This document shows, piece after piece, positions 51-11,053 of a stretch of 44,897 nt of DNA (its first letter is position 1; each line of letters begins with the position of its first letter). The notes below the pieces were generated by a model. It was given only the letters and a program-made list of their open reading frames with translations, searched no databases and was not told the origin of the DNA. A program made the translations under genes and the position numbers. Origin of the DNA: Candidatus Microgenomatus sp. (GTDB lineage Bacteria > Patescibacteriota > Microgenomatia > UBA1400 > PJMF01); contig DYGL01000004.1 of NCBI GenBank assembly GCA_020724725.1, forward strand, positions 1 through 44,897, in the 5' to 3' direction.

Positions 51-1181
51 TTATCGTTCAATGGCTTCCCAAACTTGACATTCATTTTCAACACAAATTC
101 TGCCTTGCACAATATGTTGCCCAAAATTTTCCAAAGCGTAAATTTTGGAAAGATCTTTTTCTTCTCCTTGATTGCTGATATCCAACCAATTTTCTGATCC
201 TGGAATCAAAATTCTAAATTCATAGTTAAAGTTAACACTCTGGTTTCCACTTGCTGAACAGCGGAAGCGCACTTCATCGCCACTTTTTAACTTTTCATCA
301 TCATCTCCTGTCATAGGATTAAGATTAACATCCAACATTTCAATGCTTGCACAAACTGGCATGGCTTGGCTTTCACAACAATTGCTCACGTTTGGTTGAG
401 CAGCACAAAATAGTTGGTTTTCGCCTTTAGCACAGATTTTCTTAGCCACACCATCTTTATTGACTGGTTGACATGTCAATCCATTATCGCAATCAGCGTT
501 ACTATTACATCCAAACTCTCCGCAATTGAGTTTTTCTTCAAGTGGTGGTTCATCTGGAGGATCGTCATCAGGCGGACAATCTTCACACACAGCATTAGCT
601 TCCTCACATAAATCACCACAGCTATCGGCTGAGCCAATTACCCACCATCCATTGCCGGTTCCGCCACAACGACAGCGAATCAAGCCAACTTCGGAACAAG
701 TTTCTACGCGATCAGTATTAGGATTGTCGCACCAATCTCCGCCCATTGATTCGTTGGTGCAAGCATCTAAATCGGTTACATATCCACAAATAATTCCGCC
801 ATCTGCAGTATCTCTACAAGTCTCATGATAACATTTGTCTGGATCGCCATTGTTTAAGCGATGAGTGTTTGGGCCACAGTCGCCACCATCTGTTGAGTTG
901 GGTATACAATAATCAATTCCTCCAATGTTTTCTAAATGTGTGTCTGGATAGGCTCCACAACCTTCTGGAGGAGCTGGAATATAATTTGGCGCCGCTTGCT
1001 GGCGATTGTCTTGGTTTTGTTGTATTAAGATGTAGCTTGCAGAAATTCCTATTGCTAAAAATAACAAAATAAGTAATCCAGCAAGTCTACTTCTATTTTT
1101 TATTGGCTTGGCGAGTGAAATCTGTTTTTCTAAGCTGATTTTTTTATATTTGGCTGGTAAGTAGTCTCTTGGATCATTCAT
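51..1181 (-). CDS. Cys-rich membrane-anchored/secreted protein
   Basis: 376-aa ORF; basic N-terminus plus one hydrophobic segment (LAGLLILLFLAIGISASYILI), then many Cys residues and a Pro/Asp-rich linker; TATAAT upstream on minus strand. Confidence 0.7.
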   Translation of the reverse strand: MNDPRDYLPAKYKKISLEKQISLAKPIKNRSRLAGLLILLFLAIGISASYILIQQNQDNRQQAAPNYIPAPPEGCGAYPDTHLENIGGIDYCIPNSTDGGDCGPNTHRLNNGDPDKCYHETCRDTADGGIICGYVTDLDACTNESMGGDWCDNPNTDRVETCSEVGLIRCRCGGTGNGWWVIGSADSCGDLCEEANAVCEDCPPDDDPPDEPPLEEKLNCGEFGCNSNADCDNGLTCQPVNKDGVAKKICAKGENQLFCAAQPNVSNCCESQAMPVCASIEMLDVNLNPMTGDDDEKLKSGDEVRFRCSASGNQSVNFNYEFRILIPGSENWLDISNQGEEKDLSKIYALENFGQHIVQGRICVENECQVWEAIER

Positions 1182-1276
1182 GCGGCTTCAATTTTTTATC
1201 TATTTTAGATTATAGTTTTTTTGACTTTTTTGCAAGATAAGAGGCCTTTTAGTTAATCAGTGATAGAATTCTTACA

Positions 1277-2065
1277 GTGCAGAAAGACAACTTGCTTTAC
1301 TACCTTGATTTCGTTTGGCTTCTAACAAAAAAAGAAATCAAACTGCGTTATAAAAGAACTTTTTTGGGTTTGTTATGGGTGATCCTCAATCCTTTGTTAC
1401 AAATGTTAATTATTGGTTTGGTTTTTCAGTTTTTTGTGCCGATGAAAATTGAAAATTATTTTTTGTTTTTATTTGCCGGACTTTTGCCTTGGGGTTTTTT
1501 TGCTAATTCTTTGCTTCGAACCACGCCACTTTTGGTGCAGGAAAGAGCTTTGATGCAGAAAGCAGCTTTTCCAAGGGAGGTTTTGGTCGTAGCAGCGGTT
1601 TTGGCCAATTTGTTTCATACTTTGGTGGCGAGTGGAGTTTTTTTGTTTTTTCTGACTTTTTTGCAAGGTAATTTAATGGATGCTTTGTGGTTTTTTATCT
1701 CTAGACTGTTTTTATCAGCTTTCTTTTTTGGTTTTTTCTTATTATTTGTTTTGGCTACTTGTTTGATTGTCTCCGCTCTTTATGTCAGAGTGAGAGATTT
1801 AAATTTTGTAGTACAACTTAGCGTCCAACTGCTCTTTTATGGAGTGCCTATTGTTTATGGTTTGAGTATGTTGCCTGAGATTTTTAGGCAAATTCTTTAC
1901 TTTAACCCTTTAGTAAGTTTTATTGAGATTTTTCGCTATTTTTTCTTGGGTGGTGAATTTAATTTAACGTCTACTTCTGTAGTTGCTTTATTGTCTTTTC
2001 CTTATTTATTAGTGGCTTTACGAATTTTTAGAAAAGAAAGTAAAAATTTTGATGACTGGTTCTAA
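1277..2065 (+). CDS. ABC-2 type polysaccharide exporter permease (Wzm-like)
   Basis: 262 aa; N-term LTKKEIKLRYKRTFLGLLWVILNPLLQMLIIGLVF typical of Wzm/TagG permeases; adjacent to Wzt-like ATPase. GTG start. Confidence 0.9.
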   Translation: MQKDNLLYYLDFVWLLTKKEIKLRYKRTFLGLLWVILNPLLQMLIIGLVFQFFVPMKIENYFLFLFAGLLPWGFFANSLLRTTPLLVQERALMQKAAFPREVLVVAAVLANLFHTLVASGVFLFFLTFLQGNLMDALWFFISRLFLSAFFFGFFLLFVLATCLIVSALYVRVRDLNFVVQLSVQLLFYGVPIVYGLSMLPEIFRQILYFNPLVSFIEIFRYFFLGGEFNLTSTSVVALLSFPYLLVALRIFRKESKNFDDWF

Positions 2066-3086
2066 AACAGCTGTTTTATTAAAGAAAGTAAATAAACGCT
2101 ATTTTTTGCGCAACTCTTTTGATAATAAGCCTTTTTTGGCCCTGCAAAACATTAACTTAAAGATCAAGCAGGGCGAAAAAATTGCTATTTTGGGTGATAA
2201 TGGTGCTGGTAAGACTACTTTGCTAAAAATGATCGCCGGCATTGCCGAGCCAAGCACTGGTCAGGTGAAAACTAGTGGTAAGGTAGTTTCCTTGATTGAC
2301 ATTACCGCCGGTTTCCATCAAGAGTTTTCTGGTCGAGAAAATATTTATCTTAATGCTATTTTGCTTGGTCTCAGACCAAAAAATGTCAAAAATCTAGAGC
2401 AAGAAATTATTGATTTTGCTGGCTTGGGTGAGTTTATTGATCAGCCAATCTATACCTATTCTTCAGGCATGGTTTTGCGTCTTGGTTTTGCCGTGGCCAT
2501 TCACGCTCAGCCAGATGTTTTGATTCTAGATGAAGGGATTATTGTTGGCGATCAAGATTTCCAGAAGAAAGCTTACGATAGTGTCGAAGAAATTTTTGCG
2601 AAGGGTAAGACCATTGTTCTCTCTAGCCACATGTTGCCTCTGCTTAAAAGACTTTGTCAGCGTTTTGTTTGGTTGGAACATGGTCAAATTATGATGGATG
2701 GTGGGCAAGAGGTTTTACTTGAATACAAGAAACACCGCGCCAATTTGCAAATAGAGAATTTGCCGAGTAATAAAAATGCTTCTTTATTGTTTGATTTTCT
2801 AAAAAACTTGCCAATTGGTGAGAAATTTGTAGCGACCGCTAGTAGTGGGAGTATGGAGCCTTTAATTTTGAAGGGTGACGAGATTGAAGTGGAGCGAGTT
2901 GATTTTGCTAATCTCAAAAAAGGCGATGTGATTGCTTTTTGGAATGATGCCTTACAAAACGTAGTTGTTCATCGCTTTTATAAGTTGGAGCAGGGCAAGA
3001 TTGTGACTAAGGGTGATAATAACCTAGTGGCAGACGTGGGTTATGTTGAGAAGGAAAATTTCTTGGGTAAAGTCTCAGGCTTTTGA
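2049..3086 (+). CDS. Wzt-like ABC ATPase fused to a C-terminal S26 signal-peptidase-like domain
   Basis: Walker A GDNGAGKTT, signature YSSGMVLRLGFA, Walker B VLILDEG; C-terminal about 95 aa contains SSGSMEPLILKGDEIEV...GDVIAF...VVHRFY...TKGDNN..AD, matching S26 peptidase motifs with His rather than Lys as putative base. Confidence 0.88.
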   Translation: MMTGSKTAVLLKKVNKRYFLRNSFDNKPFLALQNINLKIKQGEKIAILGDNGAGKTTLLKMIAGIAEPSTGQVKTSGKVVSLIDITAGFHQEFSGRENIYLNAILLGLRPKNVKNLEQEIIDFAGLGEFIDQPIYTYSSGMVLRLGFAVAIHAQPDVLILDEGIIVGDQDFQKKAYDSVEEIFAKGKTIVLSSHMLPLLKRLCQRFVWLEHGQIMMDGGQEVLLEYKKHRANLQIENLPSNKNASLLFDFLKNLPIGEKFVATASSGSMEPLILKGDEIEVERVDFANLKKGDVIAFWNDALQNVVVHRFYKLEQGKIVTKGDNNLVADVGYVEKENFLGKVSGF

Positions 3087-3368
3087 TTGCTTTTCAACAA
3101 TTTTCTCTTTAAGTGCCTGCTTCAACCATTCTTTGAGGTCTTTTTCCAACTCTTCTTTGGAAACATCATATTCTTGATTGAGTTTCTTGAGTAGATTGTC
3201 AAAAGAAATTGGTTTGGCTAGATTTTCCCAGATAGAAAAAGCCACATCTTCGAGTTCGATGATGTGTTTTTTATCTTTAGTCAGAAGCAAAAAGTGGTCG
3301 TTTTTTTTTAAAAAAACAACACCAACACTTCTAGAGAAAAGAAGACCATTTAAAACATCCATAATCAT
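3075..3368 (-). CDS. PqqD-family protein (RRE-like peptide-binding domain)
   Basis: 97 aa; HIIELEDVAFSIWENLAKPISFDNLLKKLNQEYDVSKEELEKDLKEWLKQALKEKIV matches the PqqD-fold pattern (LN..a..iW.lldg..t..ei...l...ydv....v..dv..fl..L...gli). Confidence 0.8.
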   Translation of the reverse strand: MIMDVLNGLLFSRSVGVVFLKKNDHFLLLTKDKKHIIELEDVAFSIWENLAKPISFDNLLKKLNQEYDVSKEELEKDLKEWLKQALKEKIVEKQSKA

Positions 3369-3392
3369 TAAGATTTTAGGATTTTTTAAGTA

Positions 3393-3467
3393 TTATATTG
3401 CTTCAGCAACAGCCAAACTGATTTTAATTTTGGCTTTTTTTAGCACTGGTTTGTTGTATTTTTTCAT
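3393..3467 (-). CDS. Candidate RiPP precursor peptide, 24 aa (MKKYNKPVLKKAKIKISLAVAEAI)
   Basis: Read by hand on minus strand; absent from ORF track because of length. GAGAAGGA-like ribosome-binding sequence just upstream, near-consensus promoter about 60 bp upstream, YxxPxL motif, 24 bp before the PqqD-like gene. Confidence 0.55.
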   Translation of the reverse strand: MKKYNKPVLKKAKIKISLAVAEAI

Positions 3468-3506
3468 ATTTCCTTCTCTGTTTTAAGAATTTTTATTTGA
3501 TTGAGC

Positions 3507-3535
3507 TTCACACTTTCTATCTGATCCAGTATAGT
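3507..3535 (+). promoter_or_regulatory. Candidate sigma70-type promoter for the QueC-like gene
   Basis: TTCACA - 17 bp - TATAGT. Confidence 0.4.
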
Positions 3536-3557
3536 AGCTCATTAGAATAATTGTCAA
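3528..3557 (-). promoter_or_regulatory. Candidate sigma70-type promoter for precursor peptide/PqqD-like genes
   Basis: Minus strand TTGACA - 18 bp - TATACT. Confidence 0.6.
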
Positions 3558-3583
3558 CATCATTTATTTTTAATAAATGTTTT

Positions 3584-4561
3584 ATGAAAAAAAATAAAGA
3601 TTTTGTTTCGAGGAGTTTTTTTAATAATTTTTTAAAAAACAGAGAAACTGAAGACTTAAATTTAATAGAGAATTTAGATAAGCTTTTTTTAAAAAAAAGA
3701 GGCTACGTTATTGAAAAACCAAAAGAATCGTCCAATGTGATTCTTTTACTTTCTGGAGGTTTAGATTCAATAGTCGCATGGGCTTTTCTAATGGAAGTTC
3801 GCAAGTACACTGTTTATCCAGTTTTTGTTAAAAGTAAAAAATTTAATTTATTTTCTCCAGAGTTTAGATCTATTCGTTATTTTTCTAAATATTTTTCTAA
3901 AAAATATGGGAAAAAATATGTAAAGCCTTTTTATTTAACTGTTTCTACACAACCAAAAGAGAAATCAATGTTTATAGGAAAAGAAAATTTAAGTGGAGTA
4001 GATATTTTAAATAATTTTCAATTAAACAACCATTTCTTGGAAAATGGTTCAAACATTGTGATATTTGAACCTCAAAACGTAGATCCTTATATCAAATCTT
4101 TTTATGGCTTGATTTACGCTCAATATTTAAATTTTCGCCACGGATTAGACGTAAAAGATATTTTTGTTGGAATCAACGCCTCTGACGGTTTGTTGGCAAG
4201 CAGTCAGTCTCTAACTTCAATAAGAAGCACAATGCTTTCAATGTGTATTTCTACTAACAAATATGATTGGAGTTTTTCTTCTCCATTCTTTGAAAGAGAG
4301 TTGGGTTCTATTATGGATAAGAGTAGTGTTATAAGAATAGGTCATGGTTTAGGTTTGCCACTTGAAAAAACTTGGTCTTGTTATAAAAAAAATAATATTC
4401 TGCAATGTGGAAATGATTGCATAAGTTGTGTTAATAGGAGACATTCTTTTGAGGAAGCAAAAGTTAAAGACGAAACCTTTTATAGTTTTTCTATTAAAAA
4501 AAGACTATTTGTTGCTCTCAATTTCAGATTAAAAAAACTTTTGAAATTATTAAGCATTTGA
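3584..4561 (+). CDS. QueC-like PP-loop ATPase
   Basis: PP-loop VILLLSGGLDSIVAWAF; C-terminal zinc-site pattern TWSCYKKNNILQCGNDCISCVNRRHSF as in QueC. ORF track starts at 3551 (TTG); ATG at 3584 more likely. Confidence 0.8.
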   Translation: MKKNKDFVSRSFFNNFLKNRETEDLNLIENLDKLFLKKRGYVIEKPKESSNVILLLSGGLDSIVAWAFLMEVRKYTVYPVFVKSKKFNLFSPEFRSIRYFSKYFSKKYGKKYVKPFYLTVSTQPKEKSMFIGKENLSGVDILNNFQLNNHFLENGSNIVIFEPQNVDPYIKSFYGLIYAQYLNFRHGLDVKDIFVGINASDGLLASSQSLTSIRSTMLSMCISTNKYDWSFSSPFFERELGSIMDKSSVIRIGHGLGLPLEKTWSCYKKNNILQCGNDCISCVNRRHSFEEAKVKDETFYSFSIKKRLFVALNFRLKKLLKLLSI

Positions 4562-4564
4562 ATA

Positions 4565-5314
4565 TTATCTTTTCTGCAAAATACCTAAACCAGAGTTTTT
4601 TGGAAAGGGGAAAGTGATTTTTTCTTGTATCCTTAATTCTTGCCAAAACTTCTTGACTCCATAATCCCCGCCGGTGAGTTGACCGGAAGCAACGATATCA
4701 TGAAAGCTCATGATCCCTCCTTTTTCCAACCTAGGATAGAAAAGCTTGTAGTCTAATTTGACTCCTTTGTAAGAATGGTCACCATCAATGTAAATATATT
4801 GATATTTTTTGCTTTGATATTTTTTGGCGAATTCTAAAGTCGTCATTAAGTGAGTGATGATGTGTTTATCAACTCCAACTTGAGCAAAATGATCCTTTGG
4901 ATTGATTTTTTTCCAAAAACCAATGCCTTGCCAATTTTGGCCATCATCGGTCTCATCGTAAGCAGCATCTACGAAATCTACTTTTCCAAAACCAATGTCT
5001 CGACAGGCACTAGCAATCATCATTGGCACATAACCTTTGAGTGAACCAACCACTAAAATATTTTTAGGTTTTAAATTCTGTACAAGAGCATAGTGAAGTA
5101 AGCCAAAGCCTAAGCTAGCGTTTTTTGAATCAACATTTTGTCCCTGATTGCCGTCGTATTTATCAATAAGAAATTTGGCAACATCTTTTTTAATTAGGCT
5201 GCTTTTGAGTTCTTTTTCTAAGCAATTTTTTTTATATGAATAGTAGATCTTTCTCAAACCAAACCATTTCACCAAATCAAGAAAATTTAGAATATTTTTA
5301 CGGTTAATTAACAT
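4565..5314 (-). CDS. Class I SAM-dependent methyltransferase (Methyltransf_24-like)
   Basis: NILVVGSLKGYVPMMIASACRD, YIYIDGDHSYKGVKLDYKLFYPRLEKGGIMSFHDI. Confidence 0.7.
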   Translation of the reverse strand: MLINRKNILNFLDLVKWFGLRKIYYSYKKNCLEKELKSSLIKKDVAKFLIDKYDGNQGQNVDSKNASLGFGLLHYALVQNLKPKNILVVGSLKGYVPMMIASACRDIGFGKVDFVDAAYDETDDGQNWQGIGFWKKINPKDHFAQVGVDKHIITHLMTTLEFAKKYQSKKYQYIYIDGDHSYKGVKLDYKLFYPRLEKGGIMSFHDIVASGQLTGGDYGVKKFWQELRIQEKITFPFPKNSGLGILQKR

Positions 5315-5373
5315 ATGTTTGTGAATAGATTTTACTATATCAGTACAAAGATTTGTGATAGGATAAACCTCTA

Positions 5374-5958
5374 GTGAAAAACGAAAGTGCTGTTTTGTTA
5401 GCCAAATTGAATATGCTGGGTGAAGACAACTACTTGAGCGATTTTTCTAGAGTAAATTATTTTTTCAAACAATTTGATGAGTTTTTGGTAAGTTTATTGC
5501 CCAATCGGCCAGCTACTCTCAGGCCAGCGCATTATGCTCGTCTTTTACCAAAGTCAGCTTGGCCTAATTATGAAAAGTTGTTTATCAAGCATGGCTACTC
5601 GGTTAGCAATCGTTTCCCTAGCACCATTGTTCAAGCTTACTTTGGTAAAAAATATCCTAGAGAATCGATTTCAATTGAGATTGTTAAGATTTCTGGAGTA
5701 GACAAACAAGAAATAGAGCTTTTAGTGGTAGATTCAAAACTTGATCGAGAAATAGTTGAGCAAGAAAATCTGAATCTGAGGCATTTTGCTCTTACCTTAG
5801 AAGAAAAGGATTTTGCTGATTTTGTTAATGTTCTTTTGCAAGCGGGTTTCAAAAAAGTTTTTTCTGGTAATAATCAATATGAGCAATCCAGCACCACTTA
5901 TTTTCAAAAGAATTTTGACAACAACTCTCTGAGATTGGAAATTTTTAAAAAGGTTTAA
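5374..5958 (+). CDS. Uncharacterised protein, possibly VOC-like
   Basis: 194 aa, GTG start; first gene of the co-directional operon; LRHFALTLEEKDFADFVNVLLQAGFKKVF...LRLEIFKK weakly resembles a VOC half-domain. Confidence 0.5.
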   Translation: MKNESAVLLAKLNMLGEDNYLSDFSRVNYFFKQFDEFLVSLLPNRPATLRPAHYARLLPKSAWPNYEKLFIKHGYSVSNRFPSTIVQAYFGKKYPRESISIEIVKISGVDKQEIELLVVDSKLDREIVEQENLNLRHFALTLEEKDFADFVNVLLQAGFKKVFSGNNQYEQSSTTYFQKNFDNNSLRLEIFKKV

Positions 5959-5959
5959 T

Positions 5960-7297
5960 GTGCAAAAAACAAATCAAGCAAATCTTTCTCAAGTGCAAAG
6001 CTCAGCTTTAAAATCTGCGCAAAATTGTGTGGCTTACGCCAAGCATTTAAAATCAAATAATCTTGATTCAAAAAAGACAGTTTTCGAAAACTTGCCTCTT
6101 TGTGACAAAGATAACTACACGGCAAAATATTCCATAGAAGAGAGAATTGATAAAAATAAATGTCTGGCTGATTTTTACATGATTTGCACTAGTTCTGGTT
6201 CAACCGCTGAACCAACCATTTGGCCTAGGGATTATGAATACGACCGTGGTTTGGAGCCACCTCACACCAAATTTTTAAACGAACATTTTTCTTTTAGTCA
6301 AAAGAAAACTTTGGTTGTAATTGCTTTTGGCTTAGGCACCACTCAGGCAGGCATGATGCACCTCAAATCTTCTTGGGAAGGAAGTTTGCATGGGCAAATT
6401 AGTGTCATTGCTCCAAATGGTGATGCAGAACAAACTGTTTTTTTATTGAATAAGCTTCATCCTCACTATGAACAAATTATTGTAATTGGTTATCCGCCAA
6501 TTATTAGTGATTTTATTGATTTGGCAGAGGAGAAAAAGCTTGACCCGCAAAAATGGAATTTGAAAATAGTTTTTGCTGGTGAAAGTGTCAGTCCTCTTTG
6601 GCGCAAAACAATGGCAAAAAAAATTGGTGGTAGTCAGCGCGACATCGTGTCTTTTTATGGTAGTACTGAGGCAGGCATGATTGGTTTTGAGTCGAAAGAG
6701 ATAAATCAATTGATTGCTCGTTGTTTGGATGATGAAGATTTGCGTTTTGATCTTTTTAAAACCTTTAATTTGCCAACTTTGGTGGAAGTTAATTTTGACA
6801 AAAAATATGTAGAAATAGTTGATGGCGAAATTGTGGTAACTGCCGATCAAGCAGTTCCTTTAGTTAGATATAATTTGCACGATCGAGGTTTTATTTTAGA
6901 CTCAAAAACAATTCAACAAGTTTTAAATCAACATAAAATTGGTTATAAATATCCAAAGAATCAAGGTTTTTTGGTGATTTATGGCCGTAATTTATCTAGG
7001 CAAATTTCTATTGAGGACGTGCAAAATGCCTTGGCTATTCTAAATTTTGCCAAATATTTTCATAAAGAATTTCAATATCAAGAAAAAACCAGCAAAGGGA
7101 GCATCATTTTGTCCTTGAATTTATATGCCAAAAATGACGAAAGCATTGCTGGAGAAAAAATTAAGTCTTTAGAAGTTGCCATGGCGAAAACAATTTCTAG
7201 ATTAATAATGTCAGCCCATCCGGTCAAAGTGAAAATTAAAGTTTTACCTGAAGCTCAAAGATTGGGTTATAAGTCTGGCAAACTCAGATATCTTTAA
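5960..7297 (+). CDS. PaaK-like adenylate-forming enzyme (phenylacetate-CoA ligase/CoF synthetase family)
   Basis: ICTSSGSTAEPTIWPRDYEYDRG and SFYGSTEAGMIGFES motifs; GTG start. Confidence 0.82.
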   Translation: MQKTNQANLSQVQSSALKSAQNCVAYAKHLKSNNLDSKKTVFENLPLCDKDNYTAKYSIEERIDKNKCLADFYMICTSSGSTAEPTIWPRDYEYDRGLEPPHTKFLNEHFSFSQKKTLVVIAFGLGTTQAGMMHLKSSWEGSLHGQISVIAPNGDAEQTVFLLNKLHPHYEQIIVIGYPPIISDFIDLAEEKKLDPQKWNLKIVFAGESVSPLWRKTMAKKIGGSQRDIVSFYGSTEAGMIGFESKEINQLIARCLDDEDLRFDLFKTFNLPTLVEVNFDKKYVEIVDGEIVVTADQAVPLVRYNLHDRGFILDSKTIQQVLNQHKIGYKYPKNQGFLVIYGRNLSRQISIEDVQNALAILNFAKYFHKEFQYQEKTSKGSIILSLNLYAKNDESIAGEKIKSLEVAMAKTISRLIMSAHPVKVKIKVLPEAQRLGYKSGKLRYL

Positions 7298-7321
7298 CTA
7301 GTCTTGTGGTTTTTTAAATTT

Positions 7322-8419
7322 ATGCAGCAATTTTTAATCAATCAGCAAATTACAAAACTTCATTGTGATTTAGGTTCTTTTGTAAAGTTATCAGAAACTT
7401 TTGATTTTAAAGTTTATTCAAATATTGCTTTATTAAGCAACAGGTCTTTAACCAAAATTTATCAATCTGAAATTGAAAGTTTTTTTGCTCAAGCTGGTTT
7501 TGCTTTGCAAATTATTGAGCTTGAAGATGGAGAACAATTTAAAGATTTGAAGCAAGTACAAAAAGTTTGGAAGGAGTTATTTAATTTGAAATTTGATCGT
7601 CACTCTTTACTAATTAATTTTGGCGGCGGCATGATTTCTGATCTCGGCGGTTTTGCCGCCGCCACCTTCATGCGTGGCATTGACTTTATCAATGTGCCAA
7701 CCAGTCTCTTAGCTCAAGTTGATGCGGCTCTGGGTGGGAAAACGGCTATTAATTTTGGCCAAATTAAGAATGGTATTGGTTTGTTTGTTAATCCAAAATT
7801 GACGGTTATTGATCCAACTTTTACCAAATCTTTGCCAGAAAGAGAAATTTTATCTGGTTTTGCGGAAGTTTTAAAACATGCCATTATTTTTGACTCAAAA
7901 CTTTTTTCTTTGTTGGACAGTAAGCCCTTTTTATCCTTTTCCTTGGAAGAGTTGGTAAAAATTATTGATCGCTCTTGTTTTTTGAAAATGAAAACTGCTG
8001 AGCAAGATTTCCTAGAGAAAAACCAGCGCAAGCTTTTAAATTTCGGTCACACCTTGGGCCATGCTTTTGAAGCGATTTCATTAAAATCTAAAAAGCCTCT
8101 TGCTCATGGGGAGGCGGTGGCACTGGGCATGCTTTTGGAAAGTCGTTTGGCAGTGACGATTGGTTTGCTAGCTAAAGCAGATTATTTGCAAATTGAGCAA
8201 ATAATTAATCGCAATTATGTTTTTGACTTGGATGGAGAAATTAAAGTTGCTGATGTTTTAGCCTTGCTTCAATTTGATAAAAAGAAAAAAGCCAATGAAA
8301 TTTATTGGTCGCTACCTCAGGCAGTTGGTCGGGCAGTCTATGATCAACTAATCCCTGAGTCGGAAGTTGAATCTGTTGTCAATGAATTTATGTTGGGAAA
8401 TTCAAAAAATGTTATCTAA
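7322..8419 (+). CDS. aroB: 3-dehydroquinate synthase or related sugar-phosphate cyclase
   Basis: FGGGMISDLGGFAAATFMRGIDFINVPTSLLAQVDAALGGKTAIN; LLNFGHTLGHAFE; HGEAVALGM. Track starts at 7304 (GTG). Confidence 0.92.
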   Translation: MQQFLINQQITKLHCDLGSFVKLSETFDFKVYSNIALLSNRSLTKIYQSEIESFFAQAGFALQIIELEDGEQFKDLKQVQKVWKELFNLKFDRHSLLINFGGGMISDLGGFAAATFMRGIDFINVPTSLLAQVDAALGGKTAINFGQIKNGIGLFVNPKLTVIDPTFTKSLPEREILSGFAEVLKHAIIFDSKLFSLLDSKPFLSFSLEELVKIIDRSCFLKMKTAEQDFLEKNQRKLLNFGHTLGHAFEAISLKSKKPLAHGEAVALGMLLESRLAVTIGLLAKADYLQIEQIINRNYVFDLDGEIKVADVLALLQFDKKKKANEIYWSLPQAVGRAVYDQLIPESEVESVVNEFMLGNSKNVI

Positions 8420-9068
8420 ACTGCCAATCTGCACCATCTTGGCTGAAACAGATTTGGCAAAAACAAGAGCACTGGTAGCTAAAGTAGAAAAAGACTCTAC
8501 TTTTTTTGAATTGAGAGCTGATTTTCTAAGCAATTTAAATGAAGAATTGATTTATTCTCTTAAAAAGATTCTCAAATTACCGACAATTTTTACACTAAGA
8601 GACATAGAAAATGGCGGTCAATTTGCTGGTTCTAATGCAGAAAAACTGAATTTTTATAGGCAAGCCGCTGATGCTTCTTATGAATACTTAGATCTTGAAT
8701 TAGATTCACCTTTAATTGATGTCTTCGACAGGAAAAAGTCGAAATTGCTTCTTAGTTACCATAATTTTTCAAAGACACCTAGTCTTGCTCAACTGCGCTC
8801 AATCATCGCTACAGCCCAAGCTAAAAATCCAGACCTGATTAAGATTGCTACCTTTGTTAATCAAACAACTGATTTACAAGTTTTGGCAAAATTACTACTA
8901 GATCACCAAGTTTCAAAGCAACTAATTGTGGTTGGGATGGGTGAGTTGGGCAAGCCATCGAGAGCCTTTTTTCCTTATTTGGGGTCTTTTTTGACTTATG
9001 CTGTTTTCAATAATAAGATAGCGTCAGGTCAACTTTCTTTGTTGGAAATGCAAAAGTATGTCTTCTAA
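8409..9068 (+). CDS. aroD: Type I 3-dehydroquinate dehydratase
   Basis: FFELRADFL, LPTIFTLRDIENGGQF, LLSYHNF (catalytic His), DLIKIATFVN (Schiff-base Lys). Track starts at 8367. Confidence 0.88.
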   Translation: MLSKLPICTILAETDLAKTRALVAKVEKDSTFFELRADFLSNLNEELIYSLKKILKLPTIFTLRDIENGGQFAGSNAEKLNFYRQAADASYEYLDLELDSPLIDVFDRKKSKLLLSYHNFSKTPSLAQLRSIIATAQAKNPDLIKIATFVNQTTDLQVLAKLLLDHQVSKQLIVVGMGELGKPSRAFFPYLGSFLTYAVFNNKIASGQLSLLEMQKYVF

Positions 9069-9786
9069 ATCTTGGATTTTCATTGCTGGTCCCTGCGCAG
9101 CCGAAAGTCGAGAGCAAATTCTCGCTTCCGCTAAATCTTTGAGTGAAATTGGTGTGCCTATTCTACGAGCTGGGGTCTGGAAGCCAAGAACTAACTCCAA
9201 CGATTGGCAAGGAGCTGGAGACGTGGCTCTAGAGTGGTTGAGAGAAGCCAAGAAAGCTACTGGCATTTTAACGGCAACTGAAGTTAGAGATCGAAGAACT
9301 CTGGATTTGGCGATAAAGAATGGCGTCGACTATTTGTGGATAGGCTCTCGAAATGCGCAAAACTTTGCACTTTTAGAGGAGGTTGGTCAAGCGACATCTC
9401 AAAGCAAGGCTCCAGTGATTTTGAAGCGCTCAATGTCATCTTCACTTCAAGAATGGCTAGGTAGTGCTGGATATATAGCCAAATATAATTCAAATATTAT
9501 TCTTTGCGAGCGAGGCATTCGCGGTTATTCTCCAGATACCAGAAATATTCTCGATCTACAAACCGCTTATTTGGCCAAGCTAGAATCTCCCTATCGAGTC
9601 ATAGTTGATGTTAGTCATGCGGCTGGTCGCACTGACTTGATTTATCCAATGTCTCTGGCTGTCAAAGCAGCTGGCTTTGATGGTTTGATGATTGAAGCTC
9701 ATCCTGATCCAAAACAGGCAAGAACTGATAGTTTTCAACAAGTAGACTTTAAAGAACTTAAAAAAATTTTCCATGCAGTTAAATAA
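9058..9786 (+). CDS. 3-deoxy-7-phosphoheptulonate synthase (DAHP synthase, type I-beta-like)
   Basis: FIAGPCAAES, LRAGVWKPRTN, GSRNAQNFALLEEVG, ILCERGIRGY..TRNILDL, VIVDVSHAAGR, GLMIEAHPDP. Confidence 0.9.
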   Translation: MSSKSWIFIAGPCAAESREQILASAKSLSEIGVPILRAGVWKPRTNSNDWQGAGDVALEWLREAKKATGILTATEVRDRRTLDLAIKNGVDYLWIGSRNAQNFALLEEVGQATSQSKAPVILKRSMSSSLQEWLGSAGYIAKYNSNIILCERGIRGYSPDTRNILDLQTAYLAKLESPYRVIVDVSHAAGRTDLIYPMSLAVKAAGFDGLMIEAHPDPKQARTDSFQQVDFKELKKIFHAVK

Positions 9787-11053
9787 ACTACAAAATATTA
9801 TTGACAAGGCTTGGAAAACACCAGCTTTCAGAGATTTTTATACAAAGAATAAGGCTCCTCGACAGATTGGTTCTAAAAGAGATTTAGCAAAATTTCCTTT
9901 GTTCAGCAAAGAGCTTTATCATAAGCTAATTAAACAAAAACCTTTGAAACTTGGCGATAATGTTTATATTTTAAAAACTTTGGTTGATTTGGAAGGTCAT
10001 GAAACAATTTTTCCCTTATCGGCAAGTGATTATCAAAATTACATTGCCTTGGAAAAACGTAAGTTTGAGTTGCTTGGTGTAAAAAAAACTGATCTTTGCA
10101 GTGTGGTGGCTTTTTCTCAAAATCATACTTTGCCTTTGACACAATCTTTCTTGGCTCTTGGAGCGTCTTATATCCCTCTGGATGGAGATGAAGAAAAGAT
10201 TTTTCGCAACCTAATAGAACAAAAAGTAACAGTGCTTTTTACTATTCCACCTGTGGTTTACCGTCTTTTAGATTACGTCAAATCTAGGCAACTTAAAACT
10301 TCTTTGCGCCTAATCGTCACTACTGGGGTGAAAATTCCTGATGTGGCAGAGTTAAGCAAAGAAACAGAGAAAATTTTGGGTGCCAAATTGCTGGATACCA
10401 TTGGTGCAACTGAGTTGGCTTCTTTTGCTTTTTCTTGTCCAGAGCACCCCAATTTTTATCATTTTGTTGATCAGCAACAAATAGTCGAAATTCTAGATCC
10501 ACAGACCAAAAAAGCTAGCAAAAGTGGTGAAATTGTGATCACTCCACTTTGGAAAGAGGATTTTGCGCTTCTTCGCTATGCGACGGGTGATTTTACTAAA
10601 ATTAATGAAGAGCTAACTTGTGGTTGTCGTTTGCAAAATAAACTTTTAGTTAGTGGCGTAGAAAAAAGATTATCTCAAACAACCAGAATACAGCGTTATT
10701 TAGTTAATTTTGATGATTTTTATTACAAAATTAAAGATAGTTTGCTATGGCAATATTTTTTTGATTCTAAGTTATGGTATTTTTTTGAGAAGCCAAAGTT
10801 ATTTGTTTTGCTAAGCAAAGTTAATCATGCAGATCGTGTTTTGGTTTTTATTGAAAAGCAAAAATTTTATTTAACCTTGAGAAAAAGGCAAAAAATTGAA
10901 GAGGTTATTTTTCAAATGACTAATGCTGACGTACAAATTGTGCTTTGTGATAAAAAAATAATCCAAAAAGTTAAGATTAATCATCAAGATATTAGAGATT
11001 TAAAGCAAAAGAATCTCTCTAAGGAAGTTTTGGCGCTTTTAAAACTATGCTAA
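9773..11053 (+). CDS. Second PaaK-like adenylate-forming enzyme
   Basis: Divergent PaaK-type protein: LLDTIGATELASFAFSCPEH, GEIVITPLWKEDFALLRYATGDFTKI. Confidence 0.78.
   Translation: MQLNKLQNIIDKAWKTPAFRDFYTKNKAPRQIGSKRDLAKFPLFSKELYHKLIKQKPLKLGDNVYILKTLVDLEGHETIFPLSASDYQNYIALEKRKFELLGVKKTDLCSVVAFSQNHTLPLTQSFLALGASYIPLDGDEEKIFRNLIEQKVTVLFTIPPVVYRLLDYVKSRQLKTSLRLIVTTGVKIPDVAELSKETEKILGAKLLDTIGATELASFAFSCPEHPNFYHFVDQQQIVEILDPQTKKASKSGEIVITPLWKEDFALLRYATGDFTKINEELTCGCRLQNKLLVSGVEKRLSQTTRIQRYLVNFDDFYYKIKDSLLWQYFFDSKLWYFFEKPKLFVLLSKVNHADRVLVFIEKQKFYLTLRKRQKIEEVIFQMTNADVQIVLCDKKIIQKVKINHQDIRDLKQKNLSKEVLALLKLC

Follow-up and report, generated by a model that had tools for sequence, protein, structure and literature searches.

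A conserved mini-peptide gene in a module with a PqqD-like RRE, a transporter-borne S26 peptidase domain and a QueC-like enzyme

Gene content of the locus and conservation of the peptide ORF

The window, meaning the whole 44,897-nucleotide stretch of Candidatus Microgenomatus sp. contig DYGL01000004.1 analysed here, contains a module composed of a small peptide, an RRE, an ATPase-fused S26 peptidase, an exporter permease and a QueC-like ATP pyrophosphatase. Direct translation of the minus strand from 3467 to 3393, ATG to TAA, gives the 24-residue precursor peptide MKKYNKPVLKKAKIKISLAVAEAI, as an initial annotation made from the sequence alone had claimed. The surrounding elements named in that annotation were also located. 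The purine-rich, ribosome-binding-like sequence GAGAAGGA lies at 3478-3471, 3 bases before the peptide ATG, and 24 bp separate the peptide stop codon from the ATG of the PqqD-like gene at 3368. The promoter-like TTGACA-N18-TATACT of the peptide/PqqD unit lies on the same strand at 3557-3528 and is the sole exact match in the 44.9 kb window, for which 0.04 exact TTGACA/TATACT pairs with a spacer of 17–19 would be expected. The same sequence, again with a spacer of 18, occurs once 5' of the peptide gene in both nearest relatives, G027 (L015 7879-7908) and G029 (L016 2127-2156), with spacer bases differing from those of the window; an AAGGA-type sequence is also found upstream of the G027 and G029a peptides.

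The PqqD-like gene (3075..3368, minus strand; Pfam PqqD 3e-11) encodes a discrete RRE of 97 residues. Convergent with it on the plus strand are the genes for a Wzm-like ABC-2 exporter permease (1277..2065; Pfam ABC2_membrane 4e-13) and a Wzt/TagH-like ABC exporter ATPase (2049..3086) with a C-terminal archaeal-type S26 signal peptidase domain. The QueC-like gene (3551..4561, plus strand; likely real start ATG 3584; Pfam QueC 5e-13) is divergent from the peptide gene. A Methyltransf_24 methyltransferase gene (4565..5314, minus strand; Pfam 2e-15) represents a frequent, not universal companion, and such genes are found near QueC-like genes both with and without PqqD. Elsewhere in the window (7304-9786), as well as at L015 507-2910, genes for 3-dehydroquinate synthase, type I dehydroquinase and DAHP synthase sit inside a glycan locus; they are flanked by two AMP-ligase-like ORFs (5960-7297, a weak Pfam AMP-binding match, and 9773-11053, recognised by eye), with a DegT aminotransferase gene further on.

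A PqqD search of 49 genomes in the family gave a match in 10. Small ORFs adjoining PqqD in the relatives are plainly related to the window peptide; they were seen in G027 (MKKQAKKYSKPELKKSKIKINFAFAVAK), G029 (MKKQLKKYVKPELKKNKVKINFAFAASK), G028 (MKKKSYNKPSVKKVALVAVAFAEPI), G024 (MQKYKKPQLRIIDLKAILVVAE), G023 (MKKPSKEYIKPNDKKVKIRIVLPFVASSHDPFEI) and G036 (MKYIVPQDIRVEILAVLVQED) and in a second system copy of G029 (MKKYIKPRLKKVILKALLARSE). The two peptide/PqqD/QueC copies of G029 are different from each other; one is at L016 (C84) and the other, at L035/L022 (C21/C77), is split over two contigs. A leader profile built with the tested locus left out ranked the window peptide first among 1,750 window frames, with a score of 23.4 bits (E 3.5e-6); the runner-up had 8.3 bits (E 0.26). 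Because the training peptides had been chosen by YxxP, this ranking is partly conditioned on that motif. Genomes G194 and G334, in which no peptide was known before, provided a cleaner test; the profile, without YxxP selection, returned one clear match in each, MKTPKRIYKKPADKKIKLRAVLIIPEAV (22.0 bits, E 2e-6) and MSTKKQKKKYKKPQDLRVKINALLFLEGE (26.4 bits, E 5e-8), and in both the PqqD gene comes directly after the peptide. PqqD is present in G392 too, and these loci have contig ends and overlapping ORF calls. Among the scanned QueC loci without a linked PqqD, the best frame reached only 9.1 bits. No member of the window's QueC clade (G000, both copies of G029, G027, G028, G024, G023, G036, G299 and G194) lacks a YxxP peptide of 21–34 residues next to its QueC-like and PqqD genes, and G334 has one as well. 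Matches from Dyadobacter (L012-L014) were dropped, being 38% over 52 residues within an unrelated ORF and without QueC or PqqD context.

Changes among close peptide genes are biased to third codon positions (5/4/11 differences at the three positions between G027 and G029a). The dN/dS between G000 and G027 is about 0.24/1.55, from few codons and with dS partly saturated; peptides of 24–28 codons do not permit a precise value. No frame-breaking change was seen in the ORFs of the closest relatives, and Tyr, Pro and a usually basic leader are kept in every linked PqqD locus of the window clade. Thus a disrupted frame in relatives that keep PqqD, the observation named beforehand as refuting, is absent. 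By these comparisons the ORF of 24 residues is genuine and encodes a conserved precursor peptide, with expression, binding and mass data lacking.

The RRE and the S26 peptidase domain

The closest solved relatives of the PqqD profile are TbiB1, LppB (9x8z), PbaB1 (9x90) and TfuB1, all of them leader-binding RREs. Asp-77 of the window protein (D77), the single invariant residue among 15 PqqD-like sequences, lines up with D70 of LppB, the residue to which the leader Tyr is bonded in the LPP system. The protein thus passes as a discrete RRE domain of the leader-binding type. On the peptide side, YNKPVL matches YxxPx[L/V] as had been proposed. The precursor has an RRE-type leader motif conserved in relatives, as required of an RRE-dependent RiPP, and its recognition by the RRE, also part of the initial annotation, is supported by peptide conservation, the profile relatives and the D77/D70 match, in the absence of binding data. 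A caveat drawn by analogy concerns LppB N33, the replacement of which by Ala nearly abolished binding in LppB; this position is Glu in the window RRE, and Glu, Lys or Asp in it and its closest relatives. The comparison with PqqA held for size and for nothing else. PqqC and PqqE were not found among the Pfam-scanned window neighbours and the peptide core has no Tyr, so that the locus does not qualify as a PqqA/PQQ system.

The S26 domain (about residues 245–345 of the ATPase fusion, nt 2781-3083) matches TIGR02228 sigpep_I_arch at 74 bits, above the cut-off of 52, and its Ser, His and Asp are kept in 9 of the 9 aligned S26 sequences across loci. An archaeal-type signal peptidase linked to an RRE, one of the defining traits of LPP systems, is therefore present. 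In the LPP family such peptidases act as RRE-assisted leader peptidases (PMC13381572), and the proposal connecting the peptide with the adjacent S26 domain looks right. Further ABC ATPase-S26 fusions are encoded at L015 8335-9369, L016 2597-3646, L018 6986-8056, L023 11612-12649 and L105 681-1739. The fusion recalls bacteriocin exporters that contain a C39 peptidase, but here a Wzt-like ATPase is combined with an S26 peptidase; we read it as a leader peptidase that forms part of the transporter and would act in the cytosol.

The module recurs in relatives, where the S26 peptidase is fused or separate, as with the 117-aa S26 protein of G028. Loci of the family that have QueC without PqqD (G026, G007 and G044) also lack S26 and the peptide, whereas G042, G043 and G022 have PqqD, S26 and an HprK-like kinase without QueC. 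These QueC-only and HprK-only loci indicate that peptide, RRE and peptidase stay together as one module and that the modifying enzyme is exchangeable. LPP-like sets (PqqD, an S24/S26 peptidase, an HprK-like gene and often NTP_transf_5) were noticed in the same phylum at L020, L021, L024, L082 and L109, with peptides such as MKKTYKKPAEKVEKLLVYTGNQTL (L021) and MNKNQKTKKAYKAPAEKVEKIEIDVFTLESYQ (L024). The HprK-like and NTP transferase genes are both present in L020 and L021, and in part in L024 and in clade B of the QueC tree described below.

The QueC-like protein, its linkage to the RRE and the peptide C-terminus

QueC-type enzymes have so far been known from tRNA-base synthesis and phage defence. 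A QueC-like protein is held by 20 of 385 genomes of the class. The SGGxD loop and four Cys are invariant in the 20 sequences, satisfying the definition of the QueC family, and the profile matches Cap9, QueC and QatC in the PDB. The CDG-recognition pair Y129/D131, which recognises the deazaguanine acid in B. subtilis QueC and is absent in QatC (PMC13279940), is missing in all 20 aligned proteins. No QueD/PTPS match was found in the window's own genome, which is 84% complete, so QueD could be hidden. Without the recognition pair and with no QueD-type gene, deazaguanine is improbable as the substrate; we rejected a canonical queuosine/preQ0 role, preQ0 synthesis being unlikely on this sequence evidence. 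A carboxylate of the peptide is the more likely one to be activated, although the chemistry is unproven.

The QueC tree has two PqqD-linked groups, A (the window's) and B, and PqqD linkage clusters on it, with 4 changes needed, compared with 9.3 in shuffled data and no value as low in 500 shuffles; G194, which is in fact linked, was scored as unlinked in this test. Within the window's clade, no QueC-like gene lies outside a peptide/RRE/S26/exporter module. In group B, the QueC-like proteins of G363, G344 and G339 have a PqqD domain at their own C-terminus, as does the related G816 protein. Pfam detects the fused domain in G363 (E 3.9e-8) and G816 (E 4.6e-8); the G344 match is weak, and that of G339 was found only by a custom profile. 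YxxP peptides adjoin the fusion genes as well, for example MANLRKNNSKYKAPTAKKKKIIISSTNRGKDYYPILLVAEPDPVPW (G816) and MKRSVTKKSRYEAPKGLSKRIKVYTLRKKNYFEVEGLLAELKM (G363). The conserved unit of peptide, RRE, S26 and QueC is thus accompanied in relatives by QueC-RRE fusions. Fusion of an enzyme to an RRE is the usual sign in RiPPs that the enzyme acts on the RRE-bound peptide. Together, the constant location in the module and the fusions point to a QueC-like enzyme that would act on the RRE-presented peptide. The initial annotation was right about the peptide but had not singled out this QueC-like neighbour, the main novelty.

Part of the QueC-like family acts on something else, since in G026 and G007 the QueC-like gene keeps the same exporter, decarboxylase and methyltransferase neighbours while peptide, PqqD and S26 are all missing. 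QueC-like genes without a peptide or linked PqqD were also seen at L038, L039, L073, L074, L075 and L092, several of them beside genes for Wzm/Wzt exporters, PLP decarboxylases and methyltransferases. An additional role of this branch of QueC, so far unexplained, is implied. A PLP decarboxylase as the general amine source was rejected, as the window genome gave no hit to Pfam PF00282.

In the LPP system, LppS cleaves 15 residues beyond the leader Tyr (PMC13381572), and 10 of 11 clade-A peptides end 17–20 residues past their motif Tyr. At the LPP register the cores of the 11 would be VAEAI, IPEAV, AEPI, LEGE, VAE, RSE, QED, ET, FAVAK, FAASK and one longer sequence. By this analogy the released cores would be only about 2–5 residues, the cleavage site being inferred; in the window peptide, the leader would span about residues 1–19 including YNKPVL, leaving VAEAI or EAI as the putative core. 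A hydrophobic-x-Glu motif, [LIVFAM]2-x-E, is found near the C-terminus of 11 of 16 QueC-linked peptides, compared with 4.4 in shuffles (0 of 5000 reach 11), with the qualification that the motif was chosen after the data were seen. The near-terminal Glu is missing in the G027 and G029a peptides. The motif occurs in both QueC groups despite their differing distance from the leader, and in clade B it lies far from the likely cut; for this reason its association appears to be with QueC and not with the peptidase. An AxA pattern in SLAVAEAI had been put forward, as speculation, as a possible signal peptidase site. The pattern is present but is not clearly such a site, as the LPP-register cut falls after SLA and VAE belongs to the hydrophobic-x-Glu motif; the AVA is better read as part of a motif shared by both groups, and cleavage at AxA was kept as a possibility only. 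Clade-B clusters also encode a second peptide type (L076 9178-9267, L078 6924-7025, L080 3770-3892 and 3910-4017) ending in Trp-(Thr/Gly)...Tyr (VWTMSY, IWTDY, IWGGGDPY and IWGGGYAY); these peptides probably go with the second PqqD/HprK and not with QueC.

Proposed pathway, alternatives and known systems

The explanation we consider best, and hold with good though not full confidence, is a small RiPP precursor that is presented by the RRE to a QueC-like modifier, cut by the S26 peptidase and exported. The peptide and the RRE protein would be made from the peptide's own promoter, and the RRE would bind the YNKPVL leader as a beta strand and present the peptide to the QueC-like enzyme. The latter may spend ATP to activate a carboxylate, either the peptide C-terminus or the conserved near-terminal Glu, for joining to ammonia or an amine, which would yield an amide, nitrile or conjugate; this activation is our best guess for the chemistry and is unproven. 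Cytosolic removal of the leader by the S26-type peptidase on the exporter ATPase would follow, and a core of about 2–5 residues (VAEAI in the window) would leave through the Wzm/Wzt-like exporter. Leader binding, the order of steps, the cleavage site and the QueC reaction with its target group are all inferred. All evidence is comparative and the genomes are fragmentary; single-sequence AlphaFold models were too poor (pLDDT 46 and 36) and were left unused.

Of the alternatives, a chance ORF deserves virtually no weight: short ORFs are common in A+T-rich DNA, but the first rank and E value in the leave-one-out profile and the third-position bias led us to reject it, and the promoter and start context are conserved. 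Scarcely more credible is the reading in which the ORF is no precursor and regulates pqqD, as an upstream ORF or untranslated leader. The 24-bp distance to the PqqD-like gene in the window would suit such an element, but the G024 peptide (L018 9372-9440) is on the other side of QueC and on the strand opposite PqqD, and the G036 peptide precedes QueC; we rejected the idea on the gene orders in L018 and L023, and YxxP is the leader class bound by such RREs.

The hardest alternative to dismiss, which we regard as possible but unlikely, accepts the RRE-bound RiPP precursor and has QueC amidate a co-exported glycan or small molecule, the peptide being altered by the methyltransferase or decarboxylase or only cleaved and exported. 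The G026 and G007 genes, next to Wzm/Wzt, a PLP decarboxylase and methyltransferases and without PqqD, S26 or peptide, speak for it, as do the similar G177 locus, which lacks the exporter, and the abundance of glycosyltransferase-like ORFs in these loci. It is at odds with QueC-PqqD fusions in four genomes, with a PqqD linkage that follows the QueC tree and with a C-terminal motif common to the QueC-linked peptides of both clades. We consider it quite improbable that the locus is an LPP system of another phylum in which QueC plays only an accessory part. It shares with LPP systems the RRE, the archaeal-type signal peptidase, a YxxP leader and the idea of an exporter, and LPP-like sets exist in the phylum (L020, L021, L024 and L082), but no HprK-like kinase or NTP transferase (NTP_transf_5) gene is present in the clade-A loci read. 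Of the LPP leader YxxPxVLxHQxIxFET only YxxP is kept, and LPP precursors have 35–200 residues with a modified core Ser (PMC13381572); VAEAI has no Ser to carry the core phosphoserine.

Returning to the RRE-presented, QueC-modified precursor, the loci apparently form an undescribed family of modified-peptide clusters in which, judged from their genes, a QueC-type enzyme was recruited, sometimes by gene fusion, to modify a ribosomal peptide. On balance, we lean towards a new RiPP class of tiny-genome bacteria, taken to be CPR-type from genome size and kin, with 2–5-residue cores, an RRE-guided or RRE-fused QueC that amidates, nitrilates or conjugates a carboxylate, and a transporter-borne peptidase. 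If true, this would bring a QueC-family enzyme into RiPP biosynthesis for the first time and add a pathway for a small metabolite or signal in organisms of which little secondary metabolism is known, giving minimal-genome bacteria a candidate exported small molecule. It would extend signal-peptidase-type RiPPs beyond Bacillota, with leader peptidases fused to exporter ATPases. Protein modification by the QueC family was shown only recently, in phage defence, and the QatC reaction is still open; an RRE-QueC fusion with a substrate of 21–50 residues would be a far simpler system in which to learn how QueC relatives act on peptides. A QueC-family enzyme acting on a RiPP, or QueC and PqqD named together, was not found in the literature searched; most subscription papers were outside the search, which is no proof of novelty.

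The closest described kin are the linear polyphosphorylated peptides (LPPs; lppA-K-B-S-D-N of Paenibacillus alginolyticus), said to be restricted to Bacillota (PMC13381572). Both have a discrete RRE with a tyrosine-binding Asp, a YxxP leader, an archaeal-type signal peptidase, a dedicated exporter and placement in polysaccharide loci. LPP systems use an HprK-like kinase and an NTP transferase, whereas the window clade has neither in the loci read and a QueC-like enzyme instead, a peptidase fused to a Wzt-like ATPase, precursors of 21–34 residues with cores of about 2–5, and a place outside Bacillota. Paeninodin-type lasso systems (PbaB1, PbaA) also have a PqqD-like RRE as a discrete protein and a short leader of the [Y/W]xxP kind; the window leader has Tyr rather than Trp and there is almost no core to thread, and neither a transglutaminase-like B2 protease nor an asparagine-synthetase-like cyclase (macrolactam synthetase) is among the Pfam-scanned window neighbours (51-7297). 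PesC of nitrilobacillin, one of several enzymes that amidate or nitrilate a peptide C-terminus, forms a nitrile at a RiPP C-terminus in an ATP-dependent manner (PMC13060819), and the chemistry we propose likewise activates a RiPP carboxylate with ATP, although PesC is asparagine-synthetase-like and unrelated to QueC. Within the QueC family, protein modification is known for Cap9 (type IV CBASS) and probable for QatC (qatABCD) (PMC13279940). The window protein resembles them in the SGGxDS loop, the Cys4 site and the proposed action on a peptide chain, and resembles QatC also in lacking the Tyr/Asp pair that recognises the deazaguanine acid. The partner of Cap9 and QatC, in contrast, is a defence protein with an N-terminal Gly; here it is a mini-peptide accompanied by an RRE, a leader peptidase and an exporter, and in some relatives of the window system QueC is itself fused to PqqD.
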